DNA of 64,000 nucleotides from Sipunculus nudus (Eukaryota > Annelida > Sipuncula > Golfingiida > Sipunculidae). The stretch is taken from NCBI GenBank assembly GCA_026874595.1, contig CM049316.1, forward strand, positions 1,054,001 to 1,118,000, written 5' to 3'. The position numbers and the translations under genes were made by a program. Positions within the stretch are counted from its first letter, which is position 1. The number at the start of each line of letters is the position of its first letter. The notes below the pieces were generated by a model. It was not told the DNA's origin and did not search any database. It saw nothing but the letters and a program-made list of their open reading frames with translations. Below, piece by piece: positions 4,290 to 51,545 of this stretch.

Positions 4290-4439
4290 TGTCTGCCAAA
4301 ATTTGCTTAAGATTATTGCAACATTTCCTGAGATAAAAGGTAACAGCTCAATTCTGCAGCGTATATGGAACAAACATGAAATTACAGAAATTCTAAATAA
4401 AAATTTTAAGTCCTGTGGGAACACCATTTGAAAATAATT

Positions 4440-7323
4440 CTATTTCTTGGCACCGCAGGTGCAAGAGTATCCCCAGACATAGTAGGCCCCCCCTTTAAGA
4501 ATAGACCCCCATTTTTAGCAGCATATACTGACACTTGGCATATTTATTGTTTCTTCCATCTAACAATCCACAATCTTGTTGAAGATGTTGGTCCTGTGAC
4601 CTTGATCTTTTTAAAGATGTGTCCTTTGACCTTGACCTTTGACCTCATGACCCCAAAATCAATTCGAGTCTTGCTTTTCCAATGGGACACATGCAAGTCA
4701 AGTTTGAAATCCATACATCAATAAAGGAAGGAATTATCATCCAGAAACTAATTTTTGGACAGATGGCTCCTGTGACCTTCACCTTTGACCTTGTGACCTC
4801 AAAAGTGATAGGGTTCTTCCTCTCTTGGCAGGTGAACTATATGTGCAAGATGAGAGATCTGAGATGAAATGTTTGGCTGAAAATGCATCTACATCTTTTT
4901 AAAGATGGGTCCTGTGACCTTGACCTTTGACCTCATGACCCAAAAATCAATTTGGGATTTGCTTTTCCAATGGGACATAAACAAGTCAAGTTTGAAATCC
5001 ATACATCAATAAAAGCAGGAATTATCATCCAGAAACTAATTTTCAGACAGATGGCTCCTGTGACCTTCACCTTTGACCTTGTGACCTCAAAAGTGATAGG
5101 GTTCTTCCTCTCTTGGCAGGTGAACTATATGTGCAAGATGAAAGATCTGAGATGAAATGTTTTGCTGAAAATGCATCCACAATCTTTTTAAAGATGTGTC
5201 CTGTGACCTTGACCTTTGACCACATGACCCCAAAATCAATTTGGTCTTGCTTTTCCAATGGGACATATACAAGTCAAGTTTGAATCCATACATCAATAAA
5301 AGAAGGAATTATCATCCAGAAACTAATTTTTGGACAGATGGCTCCTGTGACCTTCACCTTTGACCTTGTGACCTCAAAATTGGTAGGGTTCTTCCTCTCT
5401 TGGCAGGTGAACTATATGTGCAAGATGAAAGATCTGAGATGAAATGTTTTGCTGAAAATGCATCCACAATCTTTTTAAAGAGGTTTCCTGTGACCTTGAC
5501 CTTTGACCTCATGACCCCAAAATCAATTTGGGTCTTGCTTTTCCAATGGGACATATACAAGTCAAGTTTGAAATCCATACATCAATAAAAGAAGGAATTA
5601 TCATCCAGAAACTAATTTTTGGACAGATGGCTCCTGTGACCCTTCACCTTTGACCTTGTGACCTCAAAATTGATAGGGTTCTTCCTCTCTTGGCAGGTGA
5701 ACTATATGTGCAAGATGAAAGATCTGAGATGAAATGTTGAGTTGAAAATGCATCTACATCTTTTTAAAGATGGGTCCTGTGACCTTGACCTTTGACCTCA
5801 TGACCCAAAAATCAATTTGGGATTTGCTTTTCCAATGGGACATAAACAAGTCAAGTTTGAAATCCATACATCAATAAAAGCAGGAATTATCATCCAGAAA
5901 CTAATTTTTGGACAGATGGGTCCTGTGACCTTCACCTTTGACCTTGTGACCTCAAAATTGATAGGGTTCTTCCTCTCTTGGCAGGTGAACTATATGTGCA
6001 AGATGAAAGATCTGAGATGAAATGTTTTGCTGAAAATGCATCCACAATCTTTTTAAAGATGTGTCCTGTGACCTTGACCTTTGACCTCATGACCCAAAAT
6101 CAATTTGGGTCTTGCTTTTCCAATGGGATATATACAAGTCAAGTTTGAAATCCATACATCAATAAAGAAGGAATTATCATCCAGAAACTAATTTTTGGAC
6201 AGATGGCTCCTGTGACCTTCACCTTTGATCTTGTGACCTCAAAATTGGTAGGGTTCTTCCTCTCTTGGCAGGTGAACTATATGTGCAAGATGAAAGATCT
6301 GAGATGAAATGTTTTGCTGAAAATGCATCCACAATCTTTTTAAAGATGGGTCCTGTGACCTTGACCTTTGACCTCATGACCCCAAAATCAATTTGGGTCT
6401 TGCTTTTTCAATGGGACATATATAAGTCAAGTTTGAAATCAATACATCAATAAAAGCAGGAATTATCATCCAGAAACTAATTTTTGGACAGATAGCTCCT
6501 GTGGCCTTGACCTTTGACCTTGTGACCCCAAAATTTATATGGATCATCCACTATTGGCAAGTGAGCTATATATTCAAGATGGAAGACCTAGGATTAAAGT
6601 TTGGCTTAAAATGCATCCACAGTATCTTTTAAAATGCCAGTCCATTGACCTTGACCTTTGACCTCATGACCCTAGAACCTATAGGGTTCTTACTTTAGTG
6701 GTGGGCCATACATAAGTCGTGTTTGAAATCCATATGGCTATCAGCACTGGAGATATCATAAGAGGTATGTGATTTTCACCATATATGGCAATATTCAAGG
6801 TCAAGGCCACTATCATAGGAAAGGTTATGACCCCAATTTAAATAAACATCATCCCATAACCCATACCTATGTATATGCATAATATAAAAGAAATCTGTCC
6901 ATTAGTTTTTTACTTATAATGCTCACAGTACTGTAAGGTGGCAATTTTGGGGGTATTAAACGGCACAAAAACAAGTAAAGAATAATAGGTGGCGCCACCA
7001 GTTTCTGGAACATGACAACCCTATCCATGATCTTCCCTCAACTTGATTTTGGGATAAATCCATGCAAGATTTCTTGAGATATTAAAGAATTTGTGTGATT
7101 TTCCCCAAAATTGGACCTATTCAAGGTCAAGGACACTCTCCTAGTAAAGGTCATGACCTCATTTTAAATAGGCGTCGTCCTCTTACCCATATCTATACAT
7201 ATACCAAGTTTGGTAAAGTTCCGTGAAATATTTTTGGGTTATCATGCCAACAAGATTTATATGCGGCGGCGGCGTGACCGGTATGAAAACATAGTATCCC
7301 CCGACTTTGTCTCGGGATACAAT
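4440..7323 (+). mobile_element. Family A element A1 (HINE-like, non-autonomous)
   Basis: Seen: the 5' end has a small hairpin (GCACC 4450-4454 / GGTGC 4458-4462) followed by GTATCCCCAGACA (4467-4479). The core is a 288-bp tandem array. The last 550 bp match element A2 (36720-38640). The 3' end has a GCG trinucleotide run (about 7263-7274), then GAAAACATA, then a hairpin (7294-7320) that starts GTATCCC and ends GGGATAC. The right hairpin arm is the inverted counterpart of the 5' motif. No transposase, Rep or helicase frame is present. The structure matches what is known of Helentron-derived HINE elements, which have asymmetric terminal inverted repeats, a 3' hairpin and an internal microsatellite. 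That class assignment is inference. Confidence 0.65.
4590..6700 (+). repeat. 288-bp tandem repeat rich in TGACCTTTGACC, about 7 copies
   Basis: GGTGAACTAT recurs at 4831, 5119, 5406, 5696, 5984 and 6271, with a diverged form at about 6560: a period of 287-290 bp. Each unit has two related halves of about 144 bp. One half carries TGACCTTGACCTTTGACCTC followed by ATGACCC; the other carries TGACCTTCACCTTTGACCTT followed by GTGACC. The earlier copies are nearly identical and the last is diverged. This is the core of element A1. A relative of the same repeat forms the core of the element at 56831-57785. Confidence 0.9.
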
Positions 7324-13545: not shown

Positions 13546-13944
13546 TAACAAATCTTTGAAACCAAATTACACACGATTGCCAATGCAGGAACTTAATTAA
13601 ATATGATTTCTAGGTGCTCATTTTGCAGGTATTTATTTTCTTTTTATTAGCCATATATTAGACTCAAATCAAGCCCATTAGTCTTGTTTCAGCAGGGATG
13701 CTTTCGACTCAGCCTTAAAGTTTATGTCCATCATAAGAAGAACATAAGAAAAAATAAACAAGTGAATGGTAAATTGATATTCAGGTCAAAGATACACTGA
13801 CACCAAAGATAAAAATAGGACAGTGGTATTATGCATATGCTGCAAATAACTCTTATGTTACAAACATAAGGCTTGAAATAGCAATATAATTGGCATAATT
13901 AGCATCCTGTAAAACACTCGAAATAAAGAATGAATACACTGAAA

Positions 13945-14645
13945 ACTAGAATACGGGTAGTCGCCAAGTGACTGTGTGTATCCGCAGAAAACAGAGTGGG
14001 ACAGGTGAAGTGAGGCATGTATTGATTGGCAAAAGAAAATATGGTGAGGTGTGTTGCATATTAGCATGGATGTCTGCAGCCAAAATGTGTATGTAGGTGG
14101 CAACTCCTGCCACAAAATCCAGAAAACTATCAAAGTTGTATACATATGCAAAATTTTAGGCAGACAAGTCAATCCACTGCTTGTATACGAGTCATTTTAT
14201 CCCACAGCAGACAAACAGAAGTACACTGTGCAAAATTGGTTGCAGGTGGCGCCACCAATTTTGTGTATGATAAAGAGCTATGTGAGATCTATATACATGC
14301 AAAATTTCAGGGGGATATGTCCAACTAGTTTTGAGATATAAGCCTTGATGTCTGCAGCCTGAATGTGAATGCTGGTGATGCCACCTGTCATAAAATCAAA
14401 TAAGCTATCAAGGATGTATACACTTGCAAAATTTCAGGTGGATAAGTCCATTCACTGCAGAAATATGAGTGATTTTATCCCAATGCAGATGACGCTGTGC
14501 AAAAATGGATGCAGGTGGGCCACCATTTTTTGTGAAAAATCTGTCCAGTGGTCTCAGAATTTTATTCTGGAAATGAACACGGCAGTGGCGGTGAAACCCT
14601 GTCAAAAACATAGTATCTGCAAATCTTTGTTTTGCAGATACAAAT
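13945..14645 (+). mobile_element. Family D element D1 (HINE-like)
   Basis: The 5' end has AGTC (13959-13962) / GACT (13970-13973), then GTATCCGCAGAAAACAGAGT (13978-13997). The core has one full GGTGGCGCCACC palindrome (14245-14256). The 3' end has a GGCAGTGGCGG remnant of the GCG run, CAAAAACATA, then a perfect 11-bp stem hairpin at 14613-14641 (GTATCTGCAAA ... TTTGCAGATAC). Sequence and order match D2 (24925-26276), but D1 has about half its length. No coding capacity. It lies directly against the 36-bp satellite. Confidence 0.65.
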
Positions 14646-14873
14646 GTCTTGCTTTTTTTTTAAAATTTGTAACAGGGCTGCTATATTGATATATACTTTA
14701 TATGACCTTAACAGGGTTGCTATGAGATATACTTTATGGTACATTAAAAAGGCTGTTATGATATATACTTTATTCAAAATTAACAGGGCTGCTATGAAAT
14801 AAACTTTATGGGACAATAACAGGGCTGCTGAGGTATACACTTTATGGGACATTAACAGGGCTGCCATTATATA

Positions 14874-15303
14874 CTGTGGTTAGCTTCATATTCGCGAGGC
14901 AGAAATTTCGCGATTTCTCCATTTTAAATGTTTCGCGAGGGTTTCATTTTCACGATCTAACCAGAACCTATATCAAATCTTTGGTAAATCCATACCTTTG
15001 TGTATTATAAAATGAAAATAAGTCATGAGTTCGTGATATTCTTCTCATATAACGATGGGCCCGTACACACAGCACAGGTAGTTTAGTTCAAATTTAAGGT
15101 AACGTTTTCCCTATACCTGTATGGATGCAACTTATTATAAAATTTCTTACTGTTATAACCTATTCCCATACAAGTATTGGCTACACTAAATATGAAAGAC
15201 ACACTCAATTGGCCAATTATTGCTGAGGGCTTCATTTTAGCGATTATGTTCCATTCGCGAATATCGCGAATTTAAAACCCTCGCGAACAAAAAGGCAACC
15301 ACA
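14874..15303. mobile_element. 430-bp MITE inserted in the 36-bp satellite
   Basis: The left end begins CTGTGGTTAGC and continues through TTCGCGAGG and TTTCGCGAT. The right end, read inward, is TGTGGTTGCC, then TTCGCGAGGG and ATTCGCGATA. These are imperfect inverted repeats of about 40 bp, both studded with TTCGCGA. Flanking TA at 14872-14873 and 15304-15305 is compatible with a TA duplication (Tc1/mariner-like), but satellite background makes the boundary uncertain by one or two bases. No coding capacity. Confidence 0.75.
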
Positions 15304-16486
15304 TAATGGGACATTAACAGGTCTGCTATTATATATACATAATGGGACATTAACAGGGCTGCTATGATATATATTTTTTTCGACATTAACAGGGTTGCTA
15401 TGATATATACTTTATGGTACAAAAAAAAGGCTGCTATGATATATACTTTATGGGACATTAACAGGGCTGTTATGATATATATTTTTTTGGACATTAACAG
15501 GGTAGCTATGATATATACTTTATGGTACATAAAAAGGGTGCTATGACATATACTTAATGGGACATTAACAGGGCTGTTATGATATATATTTTGTTGGACA
15601 TTATCAGGGCTGCTATGATATATACATTATTGGATATTAACAGGGTTGCTATGATATATACTTTATGGAACATTAACAGGGCTGTTGTGACATATACTTT
15701 GTAGGGCATGAACAGGGCTATTATGATATATACTTTATTGGACATTAACAGGCCTGCTATGATATATACTTTATGGGGTATTATCAAGGCATCAATGATA
15801 TATACATTATGAGACATTAACAGAGCTGCTATGATATATACCTTATTGGATATTAACAGGGCTGTTATGATATATATTTTTGGACATTAACAAGGTTGCT
15901 ATTATATATACTTAATATGGTACATTAACAGGGCTGTTATGACATATACATTATGGGACATTAACAGGGCTGCTATGATATACATATTATTGGATATTAA
16001 CAAGGTTGTTATGATATATATTTTTGGACATTAACAGAGTTGCTATGATATATACTTTATGGAACATTAACAGGGCTGTTATGACATATACTTTGTAGGG
16101 CATGAACAGTGCTATTAAGATATATACTTTATTGGACATTTACAGGGCTGCTATGATATATACTTTATGGTACATTAAGAAGGCTGCTATGATATATTCT
16201 TTATGGGACATTAACAGGACTGCAATTATATAAACTTTATGGGACATTAACAGGGCTGCAATGATATATACTTTATAGGACGTTAACAGGTCTACCATGG
16301 TATACACATTATGGGACATTAACAGGTCTGCTATGATATATACTCTATGGGACATTAACAGGGCTGCTATGATATATTCTTTTGGGACATTAACAGCGCT
16401 GGTATGATACTTTATGGGACAATAACAGGTCTGCAATGGTATATTCTTTATGGGACATTAACAGGTCTACCATGGTATACACATTA

Positions 16487-17881
16487 CCGTAAAATCTCCA
16501 CTTAAAACCGCACTTCCGATTAAAACCGCACCCAGACTTCGCCGAAATTCGAGGCGAGACACCGCGAGGGGCTCAAATACGAAGAACCCCCCTTTAAAAC
16601 CGCACCAACTTTCGCTACGGAATGATTTGACTAAAGACACAATCAAGCAATCATCTAGAAATGAACACGCGTAGGTTGCGACTCGGCCATTCCTGTCCAC
16701 TTTAAAAATTCCTTGGGCATTTTATTGAAACACATAACACTTTTTTGCAGGGTCACTCAAGCATGAAGTTTGGGAAGACGTAATGGCCGGTGAACCTCTG
16801 CCTGTTTATACAGATTTTATATTCCGTGCCGTATTCTTGTTTGCTACTGATTTGTCATTATATTTTGGAAAAAATATTCTGCTGATCCATTTCAAGTCAC
16901 TGTATATTTTAATTCTAAAAGTAATATTTTGAAATCTTAATTTTTGATGAAAATTCCATTCTTGGAATTACTCGGAAGATTCAAATCATTTTCATACCGG
17001 TTACTTCGGTATTATCTTCGTCACATCGTACGTTGACATCGCTCCATGTCACAATTTGCTGGTGCGTTTGAAAACATCGCTGGTCAACTAAATATCAAAG
17101 TAACTGAAGTTACCTTTTCGAGATACGCACGTATAGGAATCATGACGCTTGAAAACGAGTAATTTTAAGGTAAAATTAAAGTGGCCAGTCCGGGTTAGCA
17201 AGTTTTTTTTCCTGAAGAAAGTTTCCGTGTGGAGAGCCATTTTGTCAAGGCAGTGTTCGCGCAAGGCACGCTGGGACGAAATAGGTGGCTGTTCTATTTA
17301 CCACCCACCGCGTACAGCCGTTCAAAATATTCTTAGCAGAATACCGGGGTGTTTCAGCACATGGCGGCACTCAAACTTGATTTTAAAACGATAGTCTGCC
17401 ATTGTGTGACTCTTTACGATGTCAGCTTTTTATTCATTTTACGTTTTAAACAAATAATCATTGCTAAATAATGCCGCAAATGGGTTTAAAGTAGGCTTTT
17501 ATTTCAATTTTGCTTGACCATGCCCAACGAAGTGGACCGCTGTGTGTAACAGCAGGGTTGTTGTAAACGTATTATTTGGTGACAATTACCAAGATTTTAT
17601 AACAAGTTATATATCACACGAAAACTAATCAGAAATATTTAATTTATAAATAACAAATAATCGTAAATAATACATTTTACACACGGCTCCCATGCATGCT
17701 AAGAACAGCCTTCGAAAGTTGAAATATTATCGCCCACGCGCCGGCCCAAAAACGATGTCTGTCAGGAAGATATTCAGGAAACCCTTCTAGTATAAACCGC
17801 ACAGTGCTTTCAGGAAATCAACCTGATTTCAAGATTTTGAATTTCTTGATTAAACCGCGGTTTTAAGTGGAGATTTTACGG
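16487..17881. mobile_element. 1395-bp TIR element with exact TA duplication
   Basis: Perfect 25-bp terminal inverted repeats lie at 16487-16511 and 17857-17881; they start CCGTAAAATC and end AAAACCGC. TA occurs at 16485-16486 and 17882-17883. The uninterrupted satellite unit at about 16297-16320 reads ACACATTATGGGAC, exactly the sequence left when the element and one TA are removed. AAACCGCA-type motifs repeat inside both ends (16503-16590; about 17795-17860), as in transposase-binding subterminal repeats. No transposase frame is found. TA duplication fits Tc1/mariner/pogo-type or related DDE families; the subclass is open. Confidence 0.85.
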
Positions 17882-17985
17882 TATGGGACATTAACAGGTT
17901 TGCTATGATATATACTCTATGGAACATTAACAGGGCTGCTATGGTATATTCTTTATGGGACATTAACAGGTCCGCTATGATATAT

Positions 17986-20399
17986 AACTGAATATTATTT
18001 AACTTATGATCATTAAAATGAGCTATTTTTAGTGATAAATCACTAGCCCCTTGTTGTTGTGTAATCTATGTCAAGGCTAGTTCAGACTGCATTTTACTAA
18101 TGGGAACCCCTTGACTAAGAGCTCAACTGCCTGAATGATCTGGTCCACCATATATGAGTGTAGGAAACTGCCTTAATGTATCATGTCCACCATGTATTTT
18201 TGTATGAAGGCACTGAACAAATTAATGAAATTACTTGGGTATTTTTCTACCCCTTCATACAATCTGGTGGACATTTGTTCAGTACTTTATTAATGCATAG
18301 TCTTGCCAACAAACAAACAAACAGACATTATGAAAATCTAAACCCACTGGCAGAGGTGATACCCTTCAAGCACATTATTGTTGGTTGGGTTTTAAAAATT
18401 ACAAGAATACTCCTGTCCAAAGATCTTGAGGGACAAGTGCAGAGTCTGTTTTGTATTGTGTTTTCTGTTCATATATTCTTCATGGCAACCTGAGTGGTTG
18501 GTAAAGTATTAAGCAGCACAAAGACTTGACTCAAATCCTAACACCCGCAGCTCTCATGACTACTGTTTTAAATCTGCCAAACATTAATGCATAACCAAAA
18601 AAAGGGCAGGTCTGAGTGTCATCACATGGCATGGAGACAATCTGTCACGTGAATAGTCTTTGCTCACAGATACAGATGATCCGCCAGTCATCAATGGTGG
18701 CTTGTAACATCAACAGCATTTCCCTAACTTGATTTACAGCCTGGCAGACCAGTAGACTTGTAACACACACCCACTGGATGTCAGTTCAGCACCAAGGAAT
18801 CTAAGCAACTATTTTTTGGAGAAAATAACCCTTCTTCTCTTGGCTGTAGTAATTTGTGGTGACAAGCTTGAGGAAAAGCCCTCCATCCCATGTAACTTGT
18901 ATTACAGTTTATTAATGCATTATGCATAGGAAGCCTTATAACCCAAGAAGGATTAGAATGGAGGCAGCCTGAAGTTACCCATCTCACATGAAGCAGCCAC
19001 ACAGGCATTCAATTTCCCCATTACATTCTGCTTAATTTAGTAAGCATGGCTTCTTGGGCCTGACTTGCTGTTCATTATGATCATACGCAAAAACTTCAAG
19101 GACAAGCTGGTGTTGCTGACAAGAGCTAAGTAACATGTTGACCCCACCTAAAAGCAAATCAATTTGGTTGAGACTAGAATGACAGAAAAAGAGTAGAACT
19201 GACAAAAGGTGTTATAAAGAAGACCACTATGATGTGCAATTAAGGTGTAATATCCATAAACACAATAAGGAAATTGGTTTAGTTCAGTAATGAAAATAAG
19301 AAAATAAATCTTGACTGGTGTTTGCAGTAGAATAGATGTGATCAATGTAAATAGTGAATTAGAAAATGAATCTCAACCATCTTAATTTAAGATATAACTG
19401 TATTTTTACAGCTGTGTCTATTTCACAAACAGGTCCACATTATTCAATAATTTTCAATAAATTCCAATATTATTTAATTAGATACTGATGCTTGAATGAG
19501 TATAAACAACTGATATATATTATATAATATGAAAGGATTTTATAACAGTAATTTTCCCTTTGCATTCCCTGAAGAATATATATAATGCTCTGATGAATAT
19601 CTTTAAATAATCTCCACACTGAACATATTTTTACTGTGATCAGCAATACCTCAGTACCTTACCATTATAACTATAAAATACAAGAATCTCATGTTAGGTT
19701 AAACAATATTACCTGGAAAATAAAACAATACTGTAAAAAGATAATTAAAATTATAAAACAAATAAATAAATAAATAAATTGATTGGGAAGGCACATATCT
19801 CTTTGAAAAATACTGTGGGCTGAAATAAAACAGGCTTGTCTCTGTATAAAACATAATGTAAAAAACATGATTCAGCTGAAAAAATAGCAAAACTGATGGC
19901 AAAACTTAAGGCTAAAATAGTCCTGGCACAATTAAGTGCAATTGGTACCTGCAGGTTATCATCATTTGAGTCAAATGAAAATTTAGTGATGACCCAAAAG
20001 CAAAAAGGATTGTAGAAATTTAGAGAAATAGAATGAAAGAAGAGGGCAGGATGGACAGACCCAGAGCAATTTAGTATTCCTGCCTTCTGTGGCAGAGGAT
20101 ATATTTACAAATTATTGGGTACTATTAATAGCTCTAAAAGTACCTGATATTTCTGAATATCATATTTAACTATATAATTTTTTACATATTACAATATAAT
20201 ATGCTCTATTTAAAGGTAAAGAGAGTAAAAGATGATGCTCATGCAAGTACTTTAGTTGCAGGAGTCTGGGACCCTATCCCTAGGTATTCCCTCAATAATG
20301 ACACTGGTGACAAATTAGGGTGTCATGAACCAATTTAGGCAAAATTATCAGAATTTAGGGGGATCAACAAAGCTAAATTATTGGCATAAATATATATTA
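17986..20399. other. Unique AT-rich DNA, no gene seen
   Basis: Only short unrecognised frames and an AAAT microsatellite near 19760-19780. No terminal repeats seen. Confidence 0.4.
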
Positions 20400-20401
20400 T
20401 A

Positions 20402-21197
20402 CAGTAGAGCGTCGTTCATCCGAAATCCTATGGGGAAAAGCTTTTGTTCGGATGAACCATCGTTTGGATGAACAAATTATGCATGAAATTGGGAATCACC
20501 CTGATTAGGCATTACCAGATACTGATTGACCCAAAATTGATTCAGCTAGCCCATGATAAACGTGTGACAATATATAGTAACATTTTCAATCAATTTAATA
20601 AATATATTATATGGAACACATTCTTATAAAATAATATAATTATTGGTGAAAAGCCCTGCGCTGTAAACAATCGGTATCGTACCTACAACATGTCAGGCAT
20701 GGCTGCCATGATAACTAGAATGACCTGACATGACCTCAAAAGTGCTGCAATCTCTCGGCAGATAGGTTAATAACGGAAACCTTTATACATGTATTGTCTT
20801 TTTTATTGAAATTACAAGCGAGAGGATCGGTTGAATGCACAAGTAAACACGTACACAGTTTTATTTAAAATAAATGAAACGAAATGTAAATGTCGCTGAT
20901 CGTAGATCTGTCGACATTGAATTCTCTGGCGAGGTCAGCTGGCTTGGTACCCATGTCAAGGATTGACAGCTTGTCATCAACTGACAGGACATGGTGCTTG
21001 CTCTTACAGCAATATGTATCACTGCTGATTGCACTACTTTTAATTTGAATCAGACACCATCTTTTACACCATTTTTATTCTGGATTTTAATGTCATTGTT
21101 CAGATTTCGGATAATAGTCAACATTTCAGTTCTCTGATTTCATTTTGGATGAACCATTTTTCGGATAAATGGTGTTCAGATATTTAACGCTCTACTG
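20402..21197 (-). mobile_element. pogo/Tigger-type relic, 796 bp
   Basis: The left end is CAGTAGAGCGTCGTTCATCC and the right end read inward is CAGTAGAGCGTTAAATATCT; the first 11 bases match. Additional ATCCGAA/GGATGAACCAT motifs occur subterminally at both ends. TA precedes the left end (20400-20401), but the right flank is TT, so the duplication is not intact. CAGTAGA...ATCCGAA ends are typical of pogo/Tigger elements. A transposase N-terminal fragment is still readable inside (20884-21008, minus strand), which fixes the family and orientation. Confidence 0.75.
20884..21008 (-). pseudogene. Fragment of Tigger/CENP-B-like transposase, N-terminal HTH
   Basis: On the minus strand this block reads KSKHHVLSVDDK, then KLSILDMGTKPADLAREF, then NVDRSTISDI. 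This is the pattern of the N-terminal helix-turn-helix (Psq/CENP-B N-terminal domain) of pogo/Tigger transposases, where a basic lead is followed by a K-x-x-I-L-D helix, an LAREF-type helix and an R-STISDI recognition helix. After ISDI the sequence becomes unrelated; the second HTH and the DDE catalytic domain are absent. At about 42 residues against several hundred for a full transposase, it cannot be active. No initiator Met is preserved. Confidence 0.78.
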
Positions 21198-24100
21198 TTT
21201 TTACAATGCCATGAAATATAAGACATTAAGATGATAATCAAACAGGTTCTGGATCACAGGTGTATACCCATGTCAAGAATTTAAGTCACAAAAATTTATA
21301 TTGGTGTTCTTTTAGATTTTTTTTATTTCCTGGTTGTTTTTTAATTATTACCGTTTTTGGTTATTTCATAGTGTGTTTGAGTGTTGGTGTGTGTTTGTGT
21401 GTGTGAGTGTGTGTGTGTTTGTGTGTATAATTTTTGGGTGTGTTTGTTCACAATAAAACTCATGCAATCATGAACTGAATCCCATGAAATTTTCAGGGCA
21501 TGGGCCAATGAAGAATCCATTTGATTTTGGTTTGGATATTTGTTCAGGGAATATTCACAAATGTGCTCTCAGTTATGCACAACTGAACCTGGGAATATTT
21601 GTTTGAGATATTTTATTGATATTGAATATGCACATATATATCACATGATACAAATATCAATGGGATTGAGTGCAAGCTACTTAAAGCTTACCTTGACTCT
21701 CTCCCAACAATATATTCCACTAACAATATATATATGATGGCAGTATTCAAAGTGTTTGGGTGCTACTGACTTTAAGTGAGGTATGGTGGTATGGATGTTG
21801 AGAAAGCGAAGGTATGTTGTAAATTTTCTCAGAAATAATGGTTGATTTATCTTATTTATTTATTTTTATAATGCATTAAATGGAAGAAAAATATTTAAGA
21901 TTGTTTGTGTTGCACCTGTGTTTCAAGTCCAAGTAAACTGGGACTATGAATTTATGAATATCACTTTCATGGGATATAATAATGGGGAATATTATATTTT
22001 GAACCTTTTTGTGTCTTCTATGTATGCAGATACTGATTCGGTAATTAATTCATTTCCGATGTGGTTTGAATTGGGATTTCGAAAAGGAAGTTTTTCTACA
22101 GGTATATTTGGGGGGAAATGATTAATTCTAGAGTTGACATGGAGTTAGAACTACAGTATAGGTAATGTTCTGTTTTCTGTTTTTCTGGCATTTTGAGTCA
22201 TTTGATAAGTGTCTTCTAAATAATCAGGTTTAAATCAGAACACTGTGTTCTTTGCCTTGTGTGAATTACTGGGCTCTGCTTGATCCTGAATTGAAATATT
22301 TAGGTGGTTTGAATTTTGCAATATCTCTGGAATAAGTATTTTTTAGTGATTTACTGGTCTGGCAGTGTTTAAGTCTATTATTTTATTTTTTCCACAGTCT
22401 TGTAGATTTTGATGAGAATGATTTGTAGAACAACTCTGTTCTAGAGAAAATGGTTTGAAAATTGATCTTGTGTTAAAGGCGTAGTTTCTTGGTGGAGGTA
22501 ATAGAAGGTACAGGTACTGTGGATTTTCTTGTTTTATCATTTTGTGAAGCTGGATGACCACTGAGATTTCTCTACCCTAGCTTTTTTGAAAGGGCCAGCC
22601 TGTTTCTTTGTAGAGTTTGTCATGGCTAGTTCCTCTGACACAGCCTGTCAAAACCGAGCAGCTTGTAGCTGTACTGCCTCTGAGAGTATTGCTTTGTTCT
22701 TGCTTGTGTGCAGTCACACCACACAACATTGCCATATTAAAGTATTGGCCTTATATAAGTTAAATATGTGTTTATATGAGTTTACCTATTAAGCATATAT
22801 ATTTTAATTTGCCCAATATCAAGACTTCTGAGTTTGCTTTGGCTTTTGTAATTTCTATGCATCATTCCAAAGAATACGGGCTCATAAGTGAATGAACACA
22901 GGGGTAACGAAGTAGCCACATAAAGGACCACCCACATGGCGGAGGCTGCATTCCTGAAAATTTATGTTCATCATGAGACACACTAATTGTGGCAATTATA
23001 TAAAGGGTTAAAAGACTTAATTAACCATCAAATTTCTATCAAAATTGATTTAGCAGATATTATTCAGTGCTCAGGCATGTGCATGTAATTACTTTAGAAA
23101 ACGTTACCTTCACAAATTAGTAAAAAGAAGGTCAGACAGGGACACATGGGAAAAAGTGATCAAAAGACACTCAGCTTTAACTGCCTACAGAGAGCAGGCT
23201 GCTAAATGTTAAACGTCATAATCTGGAAATAGTCTCATTTAACATTGTTAGCCACCAGGAGGTTATTGGTTTTTCATGTATACAGCAACCAGAGAGGATC
23301 TCTTTTGACAGCTGTAGACTGCTATTGAAGTGATAGAATTGGGATGTGGAGGAGGCTGTTGCCAAGAGCGGTATCTCTTACCGTGTGTCTGTAGGACAAA
23401 GCCACATGAATAAACTGTGCTCCTCATTGATTTCCTTCATTTTATTTTATCTGCGGGTTAAATTGGAGTTGCCCTGTCACCTTTTTTGTATCCCAGTTCC
23501 CTAGACTCTCTTAAAACATCATCCTATTCAACTTGACCACCTTTCCAGATCATATTTATGGCCAAACCACTGTCTGCTTGTCTATTCTTTTATTTCTTTA
23601 TGCATCTCAAAAGATTTGTGATGACACTCCGCAAACTTGTCAGACAGGCTGAAGATATTAAATACAAGTTGGTACCAAGTTTTTGTTGTTTGGAAAGATG
23701 CAAACCAAGAATGGTACAGATAACTGTGAGTGATATGGACAGACTGTTTCTGCAAGTTGTTCTCTGTTGGAAAATTCAAAGTGGTAACATGAAAATAATT
23801 TTGTTCCTCTTGTTATGATTGTTTAAATTTCTTTTAAAAATATTAACTGTTAAACTTCATTATAATAATTAATTCTTAGTACTGCCATTACTAAATTTAG
23901 TCATATATTATTTTTTCCAATATACCATATATTTTTTTTTATATTTGAGTAGCCTTTTCATTGAAATTTAACAATAATTATGCATTTTATCTCATCTGTT
24001 TTAATTATCACTTGGATATATTGAAATTAAATTATTAATCTTAAATATGCATCATGAAGTATAATATATTTGTTTGCAAGCCTCTCTTTAACAATTCAAA

Positions 24101-24924
24101 CTTTATTTATTTATTATGGATTGTACAATTTGTAATTGTAACAAATTTCATTTTTAACATTTCCGTATATGTATGAATAAGTAAAACTTTTTGTACATGG
24201 TATGTATATGGTTTTAATACATTATGCAATGGATAAAAAGTTTGTGTAATGAATAATAATGACAGTCCTTACAACAAACAGGATGACAGGAAAACCAGTA
24301 ACTTCCACATGTTAATAAGGTAATAGTCTTTCCAGTTATGGCATACAGTGAGTTAATTATATACTTGACACATAGGAAATTAACTATTGAATTCATGACA
24401 CTGAAAATAAACAGCTTTCTCTGCTACAGAGATATTATTAAGATATTAGTTGAAGGAGTTGAACCAGGATTTGGGGGATAGGAATCAATGTTTACACAGA
24501 AGGGCTAATACCCTTATAAGGTTCACACTCAAGGAAATGTGGAGTTAACTTTCAATATTAGGAAACAAACCTGTGTAATTTCTGCCAGTAAAGCAGGTTA
24601 GGAAGATTGTGAATATTGTGATGGCAGTGTTTTTGTTATTAAATGATTATCATGCTTCCTTTTCTTAAATAAAAAACTGTTTTACTTCAAAATGATCTGT
24701 GATTCAGATATAAGTTAAAATATATTATAAGCTGAAAAAATTATTTAATTCCAGTTTTATTTGCCTCTCATATAAAATAAATAATATCTCCATCAAAATA
24801 TCAAAGTCCTGCATGACATAATGCCACAGGCTTTGAAAGTCCTGAAGGAAAATGTGAATTATTTCCCAAATGAACAGAATCAGGCTTCAAGGCTGTCAGA
24901 CCTTGAAATAAATCATAACAAAGA
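21198..24924. other. Unique AT-rich DNA, no gene seen
   Basis: There is a GT-rich microsatellite at about 21380-21425. Open frames are short and unlike any family I know. No arrays or terminal repeats were recognised. Confidence 0.4.
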
Positions 24925-26276
24925 TAACTAGAATACGGATAGTCGACAAGCAACTACGTGTATCAGCCTAAATCAGAGTGGAACGGGTGAAGTGAGGCAT
25001 GGATTGAGTGGCAAGGGGAAATAGAGTGAAGTGTTGCATATAAGCATGGATGTCTGCAGCCAAATGGTGTATGTAGGTTGCGCCACCTACCACAAAATCC
25101 AGAAAGCCATCCAAGTTGTATACATATGCAAAATTTGAGGCAGATAAGTCAAACCACTATATGTTTATGAGTGATTTTAGCCCGTGGCAGACAAACAGAT
25201 GGACGCTGTGCAAAAATGGTTGAAGGTGGCGCCACCAGTTTTGCATATGATAAAGAGCTATGTGAGAACTATACACATGCAAAACTTTGGCCCAATCGGT
25301 AAAACGGTTCCCAAGATATGAGCTTGGATGTCTGCTGCATAAACTAGAATGCAGGTGGCGCCACCTGTCATAAAATCAAGAGAGCTGTCGGGGATGTATA
25401 AACGTGCAAAAATTTAGGCAGATATGTCAAACCACTGCCGAGATATGAGTGATTTTATCCCATGGCAGACAAACAGACGGGAGCTGTGCAAAAATGGCTG
25501 CAGGTGGCGCCACCAGTTAAGCGTATGATTAAGAGCTATGTGAGATCTATACACATGCAAAATTTTGGCCCAATCGGTCAAACAGTTCCCGAGATATGAG
25601 CTTGGATGTCTGCAGCCTAAACGTGTATGTAGGTGGCGCCATCTGTCATAAAATCAGAAAAGCTAACAGGATGTATACACATGCCGAATTTCAGGTGAAT
25701 TAGTCAAATCACTGCAGAGATATGAGTGATTTTATCCCATGGCAGACAAACAGACGGGAGCTGTGCAAAAATGGCTGCAGGTGGCACCACCAGTTTTGCG
25801 TATGATAAAGAGCTATGTGAGATCTATACACACGCAAAATTTTGGCCCAATCGGTCAAACGGTTCCCGAGATATGAGCTTGGATGTCTGCAGCTTAAACG
25901 TGAATGTAGGTGGCGCCTCCTGTCATGAAATCAGAAAAGCTATCCAGGATGTATTAGCATGCCGAATTTCAGGTGAATTAGTCAAATCACTGCAGAGATA
26001 TGAGTGATTTTAACCCAAGGCAGACGAACAGATGGACACTGTGCAAACATGGTTGCAGGTGGCGCCACCATTTTTTGTGTATGTTATAAAGCCCTCCAAG
26101 GGCTACATTTGTGCAAAAAAATTTTCCTGATCCTGATGTGACCTGAACATAATCCCGGGTTTCGTAAAATTCCGCCCAGCAGTTACGGAGGAGTTCTCCG
26201 GACACCTACGCGGCGGCGGCGGCGGCGTGCAGCTGAAAACATAGTATGCGCAAAACTCTGTTTTGGCGGATACAAT
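24925..26276 (+). mobile_element. Family D element D2 (HINE-like) with 278-bp core units
   Basis: The 5' end carries TAGTCGACAAGCAACTA (small hairpin), then GTATCAGCCTAAATCAGAGT (24960-24979). The core repeats every 277-278 bp: GGTGGC begins at 25225, 25503, 25780 and 26058. Each unit holds two copies of the palindrome GGTGGCGCCACC or a near form. The 3' end has a GCG run (about 26212-26227), GAAAACATA and a hairpin (26244-26273) ending ACTCTGTTTTGGCGGATAC, the inverted match of the 5' motif. No coding capacity. Confidence 0.72.
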
Positions 26277-35794: not shown

Positions 35795-38700
35795 AACAAG
35801 TGACCCATGGGTCATAACGCTCAGCTGACTGACATGTTGACAATATGTCCTTGCACAAGCAACTAATTAAGATAATGTAGGTGGCATCATTGTCCATGCA
35901 TCTTAGCTTAAGTTTATGGGTCTTATCTGGCAATTTGTGTGTCTTTTGCATTATTTCTTGGGTGCTCAAACATACCCCAAAACTCTGAAAATATAGGTCA
36001 CAGTGACTAAATTTCAGGTTTCTTGGGAAAACTTTTAAGGAACTCTCAGGATGTCAAGTAAGAAGTTTCTGGGCCAGATGGTTATGATTTGTGCCCTACT
36101 TTGGTATCAAATTTTCAATTATTCTGAGGGGTGCTTATAAGCCCCTTAGCTCAGAAAATATGGGTAACAGAGACCTAATTTCATGTTTCCAAGGAGACTT
36201 TTAATGGACCTCCCTGGATTTAAAGTTAGAAGGTTCCAGGTCCAATGGTTATGATTTCGCCTGCTTGGTATCAAATTTTTAATTATGTTGGGGGTGTTTA
36301 TAAGCCCCATAGCTCAGATAAATATAGGTAACAGAGACCTAATTTCAAGTTTCCAAAAATTGAGAGAAAAAAATGTGTTAAATTTTTTAAAAAGTCCCAG
36401 TGGCGCCACCTGTCTGCATGAACTGAGGAAACAATGCATATGCATGCAAAGAATCATGCCCATCAATGCACTAGTTGTTTAGATACTTGAGCTGTTGTAT
36501 CAAATTTTTAGTTATTCTGGGGGGTACTTCTGAGCCCCCTAGCTTGGACAATATGGGTGACAGAGACCTAATTTCAGGTTTCCAAGGAGACTTTTTCATG
36601 GGCGTTCCTGCATGTCAAGATACAAGATTTTAGGTCCAGTCATTACAATTTGGGCCCTGTAACAGATGACCACATCTTTAAAGGTCTCAAAAACAAAATA
36701 AAAAAATAGTAAAAAACTAGATATTTCTTAGCACTGCAGGTGCCACAGTATCCTCAGACAATTAATCCCCCCCCCCCCCCCTAAGAATAGGCACCCCCAT
36801 CTTCAGCAGCAAATAATTTCAGACCAGTACCAATACCTTGAACCACTCCAGATATATGAGCAATTTTTACCGAAAGCAAACATATGGATGTACGCCACAC
36901 AATAACAATGCCACCAGCCTTGAATACAAGATGGAGGTATCCAAGATAAATGGACATGCACAATTTCAGCCCAATCTGTTCTTTAGTTTTAGACCTATAA
37001 TGCTCAGTACTCTCAAGTAGCAATGATGGGGTATTAAAAAGCGCGAAAACAAGGAAAGGACAAAAGGTGGCGCCACCTGTCTTCTGCATAAGACAAAGCT
37101 ATCCACGATCTTCAGTCAGTTTGATTTTTGGACCAATCCATGCATCCCTTATTTAGATATATTTGATTTTGTGTGATTATCACCATATATGCCAATATTC
37201 AAGGTCAAGGCCACTCTCATAGGAAAGGTCATGACCCCAATTTAAATATACATCATCCCCTAACCCATGTTTATGTTTATGCATAATATGAAAGAAATCT
37301 GTCCATCAGTTTTTGACTAATAATGCTCACAGTACTTTAAAGGGCCAATGATGGGGGTATTAAACGGCACAAAAACATTAAGGAAAGGATAACAGGTGGC
37401 GCACAGTTTCTGGTACCTGACAACACTGTCCTAGATCTTTGGTCAAGTTGATTTTTGGATCTTTTGAGATATGTATCAAACTTGTGGGTTTGGTGACTGT
37501 ACCTCAAATTCTTACAAAGTTAATCCATTTAAACATCATTTTAGCAAGAAAACATAAGGTGGCGCCACCGGTCTTCTGCAGGAAACAATGCTATCAAAGA
37601 TCTTATGTCAATTTGATTTTTGGACCAATCCATGCATCCCTAAGTGAGATATTCAAGTTAACATCATTTAAGCGTTTTGCCTCTGTGACCATGAAAAATG
37701 CATCAAGGTCATCTATATTTGAACTTGGCCTAGCCCTTGATAAGATGCATCTAAACTGTAGGTTTGGTGAATGTAACACAAATTCTTTTTTAGGTTATAA
37801 CCCTAATATCATTTTAGCATAATCGCTGCTGTGACCTTGAAAAAATGCATCAAGGACATCCATGTTCGAACTTGACCTAGCCATTGATAAGATGCATCAA
37901 ACCTGTGGGTTTGTTGATGGTACCTCAAATTCTTACAAAGTTATTGCATTAACATCATTTTAACAAGAAAACAACACAAGGTGGCACCACCTGTCATCTG
38001 CAAAAGACAAAGCTATCCAAGATCTTCAGTCAATTTGATTTTTGGATCATTCCATTTATCCCTTACTGAGATATTAAAGATTTTGTGTGAATTTCACCAA
38101 AAATGGGAATATTAAAGGTCAAGGCCACTCATAGGAAAGGTCATGACCCCAATTTAAATAAACATCATCCCATAACCCGTATCTATGTATAAGCATAATA
38201 TAAAAGAAATCTGTTCATTAGTTTTTTATTCATAATGCTCACAGTACTGTCAAGTAGCAATTTTGAGGGTATTAAAAGGCACGAAAATAAGTAAAGAATA
38301 ATAGGTGGCACCACCACTTTCTGGAACATGACAACACTATCCATGATCTTTGATCAACCTGATTTTGGGATCAATCCATGCAAGATTTCTTGAGATATTC
38401 AAGAATATGTGGGATTTTCCCAAAAATTGGACCTTTTCACGATCAAGGACATTCTCCTAGTGAAGGTCATGACCTCATTTTAAATAGTCGTCGTCCTTTC
38501 ATCCAAATCTATAGATATACCAAATTTGGAAAAGATCCGTGAAATATTTTTTTGAGTTATCGTGCCAACAAGTTTTATATGTGGCGGCGGGGGACCGGCA
38601 TGAAAACATAGTATCCCCCTACTTTGTCTGGGGATACAATAAACAAAATCTAGATGGCACCACCAGTCTGCAGAAACTGATGAAACATTCCATGACCAAT

Positions 38701-50090: not shown

Positions 50091-50223
50091 TAAAACTGAG
50101 ACACCTTTACACTTGTGTTGTAATCTTTGTATCCTTTCTGCAAGTTGACAAATTAGATGTACTTTGTTCAGACAGGTATACCATATAATTTGCCCATTTG
50201 CGTAATATTTGTGGTCCTAAGTT

Positions 50224-51545
50224 AGATATTTCTTGGCAGTGCAGGAGCCAAAGTATCCCAAGACAATTAATTCCCCAGCCTTTAAGAAAAGGCTTCCCAT
50301 CTTCAGCAGCATATACTGACACTTGGCTAGCAACTATGGTTTCTTCCATCTATCAACTTGAGAAACAATATTTTTCACAAAATATGGGGGCCAATACAGT
50401 GAATCACTCTTGAGAAAAAGGGTTTAATTTATATTAAAAAATGGTAAGGTAGGTGACGCTACCTGTCAGGTTGATGAGAAAACTCTCCTAGATGGATGTA
50501 CATTCCAAATTAGAGGCCACACATTAAACTACTCCTCAGATATGAGCCATTTTCATCCTAAACAAATGTACTGATGAACACCAATAGAAAAAATGGCCGA
50601 TGGTGCCACAGTCATGAGTACAAGATGAAGGAAGCAAAGATCTATGCACATTCACAGTTTCAGACCAATATGGCACACCACTCCTAAGAAAAGAGCATAA
50701 AATTATTCTACGGAAATGGGAAGGTCTGTGCCACCACCTGTCTGGTTTACGTGAAAAAATTTCCAAGATGGAATGACATGCCAAATTAAGGACCCTTACC
50801 TTGAACTGCTCCAGAAATATGAGCAATATTAACCCAATGCACATGTACAAATGGATGCCACTGCAAAACAATTGCAGATGGCACCACCAGTCTTAAGTAA
50901 AAGATGGGGGAAGCCAAGATCTGTGGATATGCACAATTTCAGGCAAATAGTGCAAATCACTCCTCAGAAAAGGGCATTAATTTATTCTACAAAAATGGGA
51001 AGGTCTGTGCCACCACCTGTCTGGTTTACAAGAAAACTTTCAAAGATGGATGGACATGCCAATTTCAGAGCATTACCTTGAACCACTCTCGAGATGTGAG
51101 CAATTTTCATCCAAAGCACATACACATATGGACACCACTGGAGACGATTGCAGATGGCACCACCAGTCTTGAGCACAAAATGGAGGAGTCCAAGATCTAT
51201 TGATATGCACAATTTCAGGCCATTTAACAGGCAAATTACCCTTCAGAAAAGGGCATTAATTTATTCTACAAAACGGGGAGGTGGGTGGCCCCACCTGTCT
51301 GGTTTCTGAGAAAACATTTCAAGATGGATGGACGCCCTTAATTTCAGATTAATACCTTAAACCCCCTGGAAATATGAGCAGTTTTCACCCAGTGCTGTTT
51401 AATATCCCAATCATTGCAACTTAACAGTACTGCCAGCATTATAAGTCAAAAACCCATGATCAGATTTCTTTCATCTTATGCACTAAAACAAGAAAAGGAA
51501 AATAGGTGGCACCATTAGTTTCCAGTGCATGGAAACATGACCCCA
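50224..51545 (+). mobile_element. Family A element A3, 3' end missing
   Basis: The 5' end is AGATATTTCTTGGC with a TTGGC (50233-50237) / GCCAA (50247-50251) hairpin, then GTATCCCAAGACA (50253-50265) and CATCTTCAGCAGCATATACT, as in A1. The core has units of about 290 bp with GGTGCCACAGTC / GGCACCACCAGTCTTGAG modules and CACCACCTGTCTGG. The GCG run and hairpin expected at the 3' end are absent; sequence passes into B6 after a G run at 51555-51570. Confidence 0.6.

Follow-up and report, generated by a model that had tools for sequence, protein, structure and literature searches.

Within a 64,000-nucleotide stretch of the Sipunculus nudus genome (contig CM049316.1, positions 1,054,001 to 1,118,000; hereafter the window), a first-pass annotation described two families of repeats, A and D, whose 3' hairpins have different stems that are each inverse to a motif at the 5' end, and read this as covariation within the hairpin plus co-change at the far terminus. 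This raises the question of what kind of element carries such ends, and whether stem and far motif really change together. Using head and tail queries (blastn), we found four complete elements with both ends in the window (A1, D1, D2, and A2), and the span 13959-26273, first presented as one feature, corresponds to two separate elements, D1 and D2. We call head the end that carries CTAG (5' in the first-pass naming), tail the palindromic end (3'), and E a third type of tail. The A and D/E elements are very probably families of HINEs, short non-autonomous Helentrons, which are rolling-circle transposons, and would move by the mechanism proposed below. Their features, in window positions, are the following.

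4437 to 7323, + strand: element A1, probable HINE of family A (blastn with head and tail queries); the start is approximate, the first bases being degenerate
4467 to 4479, + strand: A1 subTIR at the CTAG end, the first-pass A1 5' motif (sequence)
7294 to 7320, + strand: A1 palindromic subTIR, a hairpin (sequence)
13944 to 14643, + strand: element D1, probable HINE with D-type head and E-type tail, about 700 bp (blastn with head and tail queries)
13957 to 13975, + strand: D1 end hairpin GTAGTCGCCAAGTGACTGT, degenerate, between the end CTAG and the subTIR (sequence)
13978 to 13997, + strand: D1 subTIR at the CTAG end, the first-pass D1 5' motif (sequence)
14613 to 14641, + strand: D1 palindromic subTIR, a hairpin, at the opposite end (sequence)
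24926 to 26276, + strand: element D2, probable HINE with D-type head and D-type tail, about 1,350 bp (blastn with head and tail queries)
24939 to 24957, + strand: D2 end hairpin ATAGTCGACAAGCAACTAC (sequence)
24960 to 24979, + strand: D2 subTIR at the CTAG end (sequence)
26244 to 26273, + strand: D2 palindromic subTIR, the first-pass D2 3' hairpin (sequence, and folding of a consensus-like D end)
36715 to 38640, + strand: element A2, probable HINE of family A (blastn with head and tail queries)
36748 to 36760, + strand: A2 subTIR at the CTAG end, GTATCCTCAGACA (sequence)
38611 to 38637, + strand: A2 palindromic subTIR, the first-pass A2 right arm (sequence)

The D2 and A2 hairpins, the D1 and A1 motifs, and the shared tail are all found as first written, but the reported inverse matches (D2 arm with D1 motif, A2 arm with A1 motif), whose sequences are indeed present, run between different copies. 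When each head is compared with its own tail, ungapped, the first 20 bases show 15 identities in D1, 12 in D2, 17 in A1, and 14 in A2. The tail of D1 is of the E type (TCAAAAACATA) and that of D2 of the D type, and the interiors of D2 and A1 contain tandem repeats of 278 bp and 288 bp, respectively. Next to the 5' motif lies a second hairpin, whose stem is family-specific; the first pass had missed it, as well as the position of this motif, 31-32 nt inside the end CTAG.

Three other places in the window caught our attention. At 50223-50314, 92 bases weakly match an A-type head (78%), and no tail was found nearby. By eye, 16487-17882, within a 36-bp tandem array, is bounded by inverted ends about 26 bases long (ACCGTAAAATCTCCACTTAAAACCGC with its inverse), and 20401-21198 by inverted ends ACAGTAGAGCGT...AACGCTCTACTGT; the former segment looks like a TIR transposon, and the latter like another.

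The palindromic end consists of a GTATCC stem, a three-base loop, the other arm, and then AA, and the opposite end of CTAG, the second hairpin (stem GTAGTCG/CGACTAC in D and GGCACC/GGTGCC in A), and then the motif. Folded as single-stranded DNA, the palindromic ends of consensus-like A, D, and E elements reach -9.7, -10.9, and -10.9 kcal/mol (z of -5.4, -6.3, and -6.5), with 0 of 200 shuffles as good, while the CTAG ends of A and D reach -7.4 and -7.0 kcal/mol (z of -3.5 and -2.5), with 1 and 2 of 200 shuffles as good. The unbroken core shared by consensus head and tail is 13 bases long in A and E, and 9 bases in D (GTATCCGCC), where a mismatch follows. SubTIRs with the at least 11 bp of identity expected of HINEs are present at both ends, the unbroken core of D being only 9 bp. 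The palindromic subTIR begins 2 nt (TT) after the A|T junction, within the 2-4 nt of HINEs, and the stem-loop between subTIR and CTAG corresponds to their palindrome 8-35 bp from the end. In two copies, a hairpin seems to have been turned around in place with its stem kept: the tail hairpin at C1:6250600-6253200, whose loop is CGAAG and not CTTCG, and an A hairpin at C5:20774357.

In the window alone, the 13-base tail is not beyond chance, with 5 matches at up to 2 mismatches (3 exact) against a mean of 4.61 in 100 shuffles, with 5 or more in 50 of them. Over the whole genome, the picture is different: the tail GAAAACATAGTATCC has 7,099 matches against 14 in the reversed control, the A/D tail GAAAACATA with its hairpin ending in ATACAA 7,097 against 4, the sister E tail 4,023 against 0, D-type heads 9,498 against 10, and A heads 1,062 against 0. 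These are counts of exact anchors, which miss copies with an altered anchor and count twice the places with two end anchors (2 among 100 D-type heads listed). Hairpins and motifs alike are genuine and present in very large numbers. At C1:1398707-1418691, eight GAAAACATA tails, D and A mixed, follow each other on one strand every 2.4-3.7 kb as a tandem cluster.

A host repeat into which some D copies have inserted also occurs empty (938 genome matches against 0 in the control), which allows empty and filled sites to be compared. The commonest empty form, seen in 44 among 100 places listed, is ACACAAAAA-TGATTG, and the filled sites read ACACAAAAA-CTAG...GATACAA-TGATTG, which places the junction between A and T without duplication, the run of A leaving the border loose by a base or two. 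From 44 parsed elements, we obtained a table of 39 flanks, several of them from the same host repeats, in which direct repeats have a mean length of 2.44 against 2.23 for shuffled pairing (a value reached in 37 of 500 shuffles). The longest sharing is 7 bases in one element (L004) and 8 in another (L043), the latter within an AAT repeat. No clear target duplication was found at this one host-repeat empty site or among the 39 flanks, and the T-rich target without duplication is that of HINEs. After GATAC, 29 of the 39 flanks continue with AA and then T, and 4 with AAA and then T; the remaining six include three copies with heads named F, which were misread by the script. Heads named F, G, and H have common flanks among their copies, which indicates that these copies ride in other repeats. 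The suggestion that the elements are Helentron-derived, with asymmetric inverted repeats, is borne out by the anatomy, the empty site, and the lack of a clear target duplication.

Several known systems were compared, as far as the accessible parts of their descriptions go. The HINEs and Helentrons of mite, Culex, and Drosophila likewise have palindromic subTIRs, one of them 2-4 nt from the end, a palindrome near the other end, a T-rich target without duplication, and an origin as deletion derivatives of a Rep-helicase-endonuclease element (PMC4067079). They differ in that the inner subTIR of the mite HINEs is 38-60 bp from the end, above the 31-32 nt found here, and our elements end in TT...CTAG (PMC4067079). 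The proto-Helentron-Pi of Phytophthora has the same 5' TT, 3' CTAG, and A|T insertion without duplication, but it is described as otherwise Helitron-like and without endonuclease domain, whereas the candidate partner presented below has an endonuclease match (PMC4067079). FoHeli1 and FoHeli2 of Fusarium oxysporum also have subgroup-specific 5' hairpin stems repeated in inverted form near the 3' end, self-insertion composites, and reversed gene orientation in some members; their sequences and ends (TCAG...ATTTT) are different, central tandem repeats are not mentioned in the accessible text, and a figure legend gives a distance of about 20-40 between subTIR and end (PMC5148889). Canonical Helitrons (Helitron1) were discarded, since they have 5' TC, 3' CTRR, and no terminal inverted repeats, whereas a 5' TT and subTIRs are found here, even if the 3' CTAG does fit CTRR.

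We presume that these elements resemble repeats of bivalves. Indeed, Cg_HINE of Crassostrea gigas has a 5' subTIR with a complementary IR, a microsatellite, central tandem repeats, a 3' subTIR, and a palindrome; its subTIR, IR, stem, and loop are element-specific, and it inserts into other repeats without duplication (PMC7492417). In the accessible part of that description no autonomous element could be related to Cg_HINE, in contrast to the one likely partner found here (PMC7492417).

This candidate is an element of 19,661 bp (about 19.7 kb) at C6:50110115-50129775, which combines a head of the D type with a tail of the E type and carries a Rep-helicase-endonuclease gene on the + strand. It was found among 85 places where a D end is followed by a deviating base, 20 of which were read, and was taken up because a Rep match (one of 143 in the genome) lay 13 kb off and the interior was not that of a HINE. 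The gene is in pieces and not one open frame, with matches to Rep (PF14214, 2.4e-22), PIF1 (1e-10), and Exo_endo_phos (1.1e-5), and it is collinear with the proteins of three other Helentron loci. Its Rep motif 2 is RGWPH, with W and not S between G and P, whereas Helentrons have RGSPH, as do five other Rep genes of this genome; the serine is diagnostic in most Helentron cases according to Thomas et al. 2014, as seen in the accessible text (PMC4067079). The gene points away from the CTAG end and toward the palindromic one, in agreement with the 5'/3' naming of the first-pass annotation and opposite to most Helentrons, for which one such case is reported in the same accessible text (PMC4067079).

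Several features link the C6 element with the short ones. Its head is identical over 44 and 45 bp with those of two HINEs (L048 and L049), its right 806 bp are 90.0% like L048, and its last approximately 800 bases are common to both. Furthermore, a copy of 1,160 bp on C8, with flanks different from those of C6, joins the left 333 bp of C6 (97.6%) to its right 805 bp (94.3%), which indicates that the two ends have moved as one unit. Derivation from an element with Rep, helicase, and endonuclease, as in HINEs, is therefore found for D/E (C6, C8). The right part of C6 starts with a HINE head fragment (ACTAGAATAC, segment position 18822), which suggests that a HINE inserted in the C6 element and that its end was taken over; judged by its sequence, the element may thus be a composite. 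We consider the C6 element as a likely partner of D/E, of the autonomous type but with a broken gene. The autonomous Rep-helicase element with the same ends that the first pass had proposed to search for thus has a likely counterpart, in this broken form, for D/E, and none was found for A.

Around five other Rep genes (C11, C13 twice, C7, and C17), whose stretches code for Helentron proteins, no A or D ends were found bar one in stretches of 12-12.5 kb that stop short of the element ends, so that these five elements could also be partners. Inverted repeats in these stretches are only 10-12-base matches. The exception, a D-type end at the edge of the C17 stretch, was rejected as it belongs to a HINE inserted upstream of the C17 gene. 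This HINE with a D-type head (L051 and the start of the stretch) lies in the upstream part of a Helentron whose aligned C13 copy is without it. The script marked 2 of the 20 places read as not HINE (L073 and L092). By eye, a further place (L087) resembles L092, with D-type ends and a third interior common to both, and these two are perhaps one more HINE family.

The combination of ends was analyzed in 54 head-tail pairs from the matches listed, by place and strand, and all 54 stay within A or within D/E: no A end is joined to a D or E end. The input comprised 78 of 100 listed A/D tails, 38 of 100 listed E tails, 98 of 100 listed D-type heads (two double listings omitted), and 17 of 100 listed A heads. 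For 55 of these 115 heads, a listed tail lay no more than 4.5 kb away; one of the 55 was set aside because of an intervening head, and the remaining 60 had no such tail because tails were listed by exact anchors. All 12 A heads are paired with A tails and all 42 D-type heads with D or E tails; more specifically, the 25 heads with T after GTATCCGCC all have D tails, the 10 heads with AGAGAAGG all have E tails, and the 7 other D-type heads have a D tail (6) or an E tail (1). Family-specific stems with pairing kept and a matching motif at the far end are thus confirmed for A versus D, and intact copies with the 5' motif of one family and the 3' arm of the other, which the first pass had named as contrary evidence, amount to 0 of the 54 pairs. 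Such exclusive pairs are what inheritance of both ends gives, and step-by-step covariation is not thereby shown; joint inheritance of the two ends explains why each family retains its own.

That the stem and far motif of one lineage changed stepwise, under selection by one protein, with A and D as points on the path, seems quite unlikely to us, although the inner stem does differ between A and D at both ends with pairing kept. Within D/E, the consensus heads differ after GTATCCGCC (T or A), whereas both tails have A, and the tails differ (CAGAG or CGAAG), whereas both heads have TCAGAG, so that neither difference is mirrored at the opposite end. Single copies behave alike: in 9 core positions of the 42 D/E pairs, 8 head changes and 13 tail changes coincide in place twice and in base once, which is at chance level (shuffled mean 0.35 for the same base; 29% of shuffles reach 1). 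The hairpins were typed from 100 of 100 and 99 of 100 listed matches, counting only those of 30 letters (D, E) or 27 letters (A). An excess of Watson-Crick pairs was found at stem position 6 of D, with 87 against 73.0 shuffled (p 0.003) in 172 copies partly chosen for left-arm changes, and 34 against 29.8 (p 0.002) in 38 unchosen copies. Position 11 of D gives p 0.024, which rests on a single changed pair, position 7 of E has 2 compensated pairs (p 0.13, n=36), and none of 28 A hairpins has a compensated pair. At position 6, a right-arm A accompanies a left T in 17/70 copies, G in 3/13, A in 2/14, and C in 5/75; being as frequent with left G, a small count, as with left T, it does not clearly tie the excess to the complementary base, and age or lineage, rather than pairing, may explain it. 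This position is part of a CpG on both arms, which could then decay independently. The change does not reach the head either: none of 7 T-A copies (10 regions fetched, 6 with a parsed head, and L006) has the matching T there, all 7 having C. Among copies with right-arm A, the head has T in 2/10 (L010 and L034, both riding in other repeats), compared to 4/26 among those with right-arm G; in T-G regions, 2 of 11 parsed heads have T. The proposal of covariation and co-change thus holds as a difference between A and D, and fails within families, where changes are unmirrored or at chance level. Since co-change is unseen within families, it rests on one contrast, A versus D, in which the entire inner repeat may have been replaced. 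Among the titles listed in literature searches, none deals with covariation of Helentron ends.

Cut-and-paste MITEs with terminal inverted repeats would also be short and numerous, with inverted repeats near their ends, but we find this extremely improbable, given the absence of a target duplication at the empty site and of a clear one in the 39 flanks, the repeat 31-32 nt inside one end, the hairpins at both ends, and a candidate partner coding for Rep and helicase; no transposase-coding element with these ends was seen in the sequence fetched. As for the partner itself, the HINE head fragment at the inner junction of C6, the broken gene, and the finding, among the best candidates only, of just two genome matches for its left interior, C6 itself and C8, could mean that three pieces, a D head fragment, a Helentron, and a HINE, came together by chance. 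We regard this as unlikely, as the C8 copy is a single short element, located elsewhere, that carries both ends of C6.

Taking A and D/E as HINEs, their anatomy would give a polarity opposite to the first-pass naming, the start being the end with TT and the palindromic subTIR. The far end would then be formed by the second subTIR copy and, 31-32 nt on, the end CTAG, with a different hairpin between. We infer that a Rep-helicase-endonuclease from an autonomous element recognizes both subTIR copies, starts with nicking at the first end, and stops at the hairpin-CTAG end, and that insertion takes place between A and T without target duplication. Recognition, nicking, and polarity are deduced from the arrangement of the ends. 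Against the HINE reading are the distance of 31-32 nt, the slightly long flank repeats, the RGWPH motif, the broken gene and its direction, the possibly composite nature of C6, and the lack of a partner found for A. The HINE head fragment inside C6 suggests takeover of another element's end by self-insertion, a process proposed for FoHelis in the accessible text of PMC5148889. It is conceivable, though improbable, that one Rep protein serves both A and D/E, reading the outer GTATCC, the hairpin, and CTAG and tolerating any inner repeat as long as the two ends agree, and that families arise by end takeover through such self-insertion.

Subfamily-specific switching of the stem had been put forward as a useful new handle, but matched family-specific ends are already part of Helentron classification: families are defined by subTIRs identical over at least 11 bp (PMC4067079), and FoHeli1 and FoHeli2 already differ in this way (PMC5148889), according to the accessible parts of both sources. 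A partner of A would be expected to carry GTATCCCCAGACA at both ends. What is new and useful is the likely partner of D/E: with it and its short derivative located, what moves tandem-repeat HINEs becomes testable.
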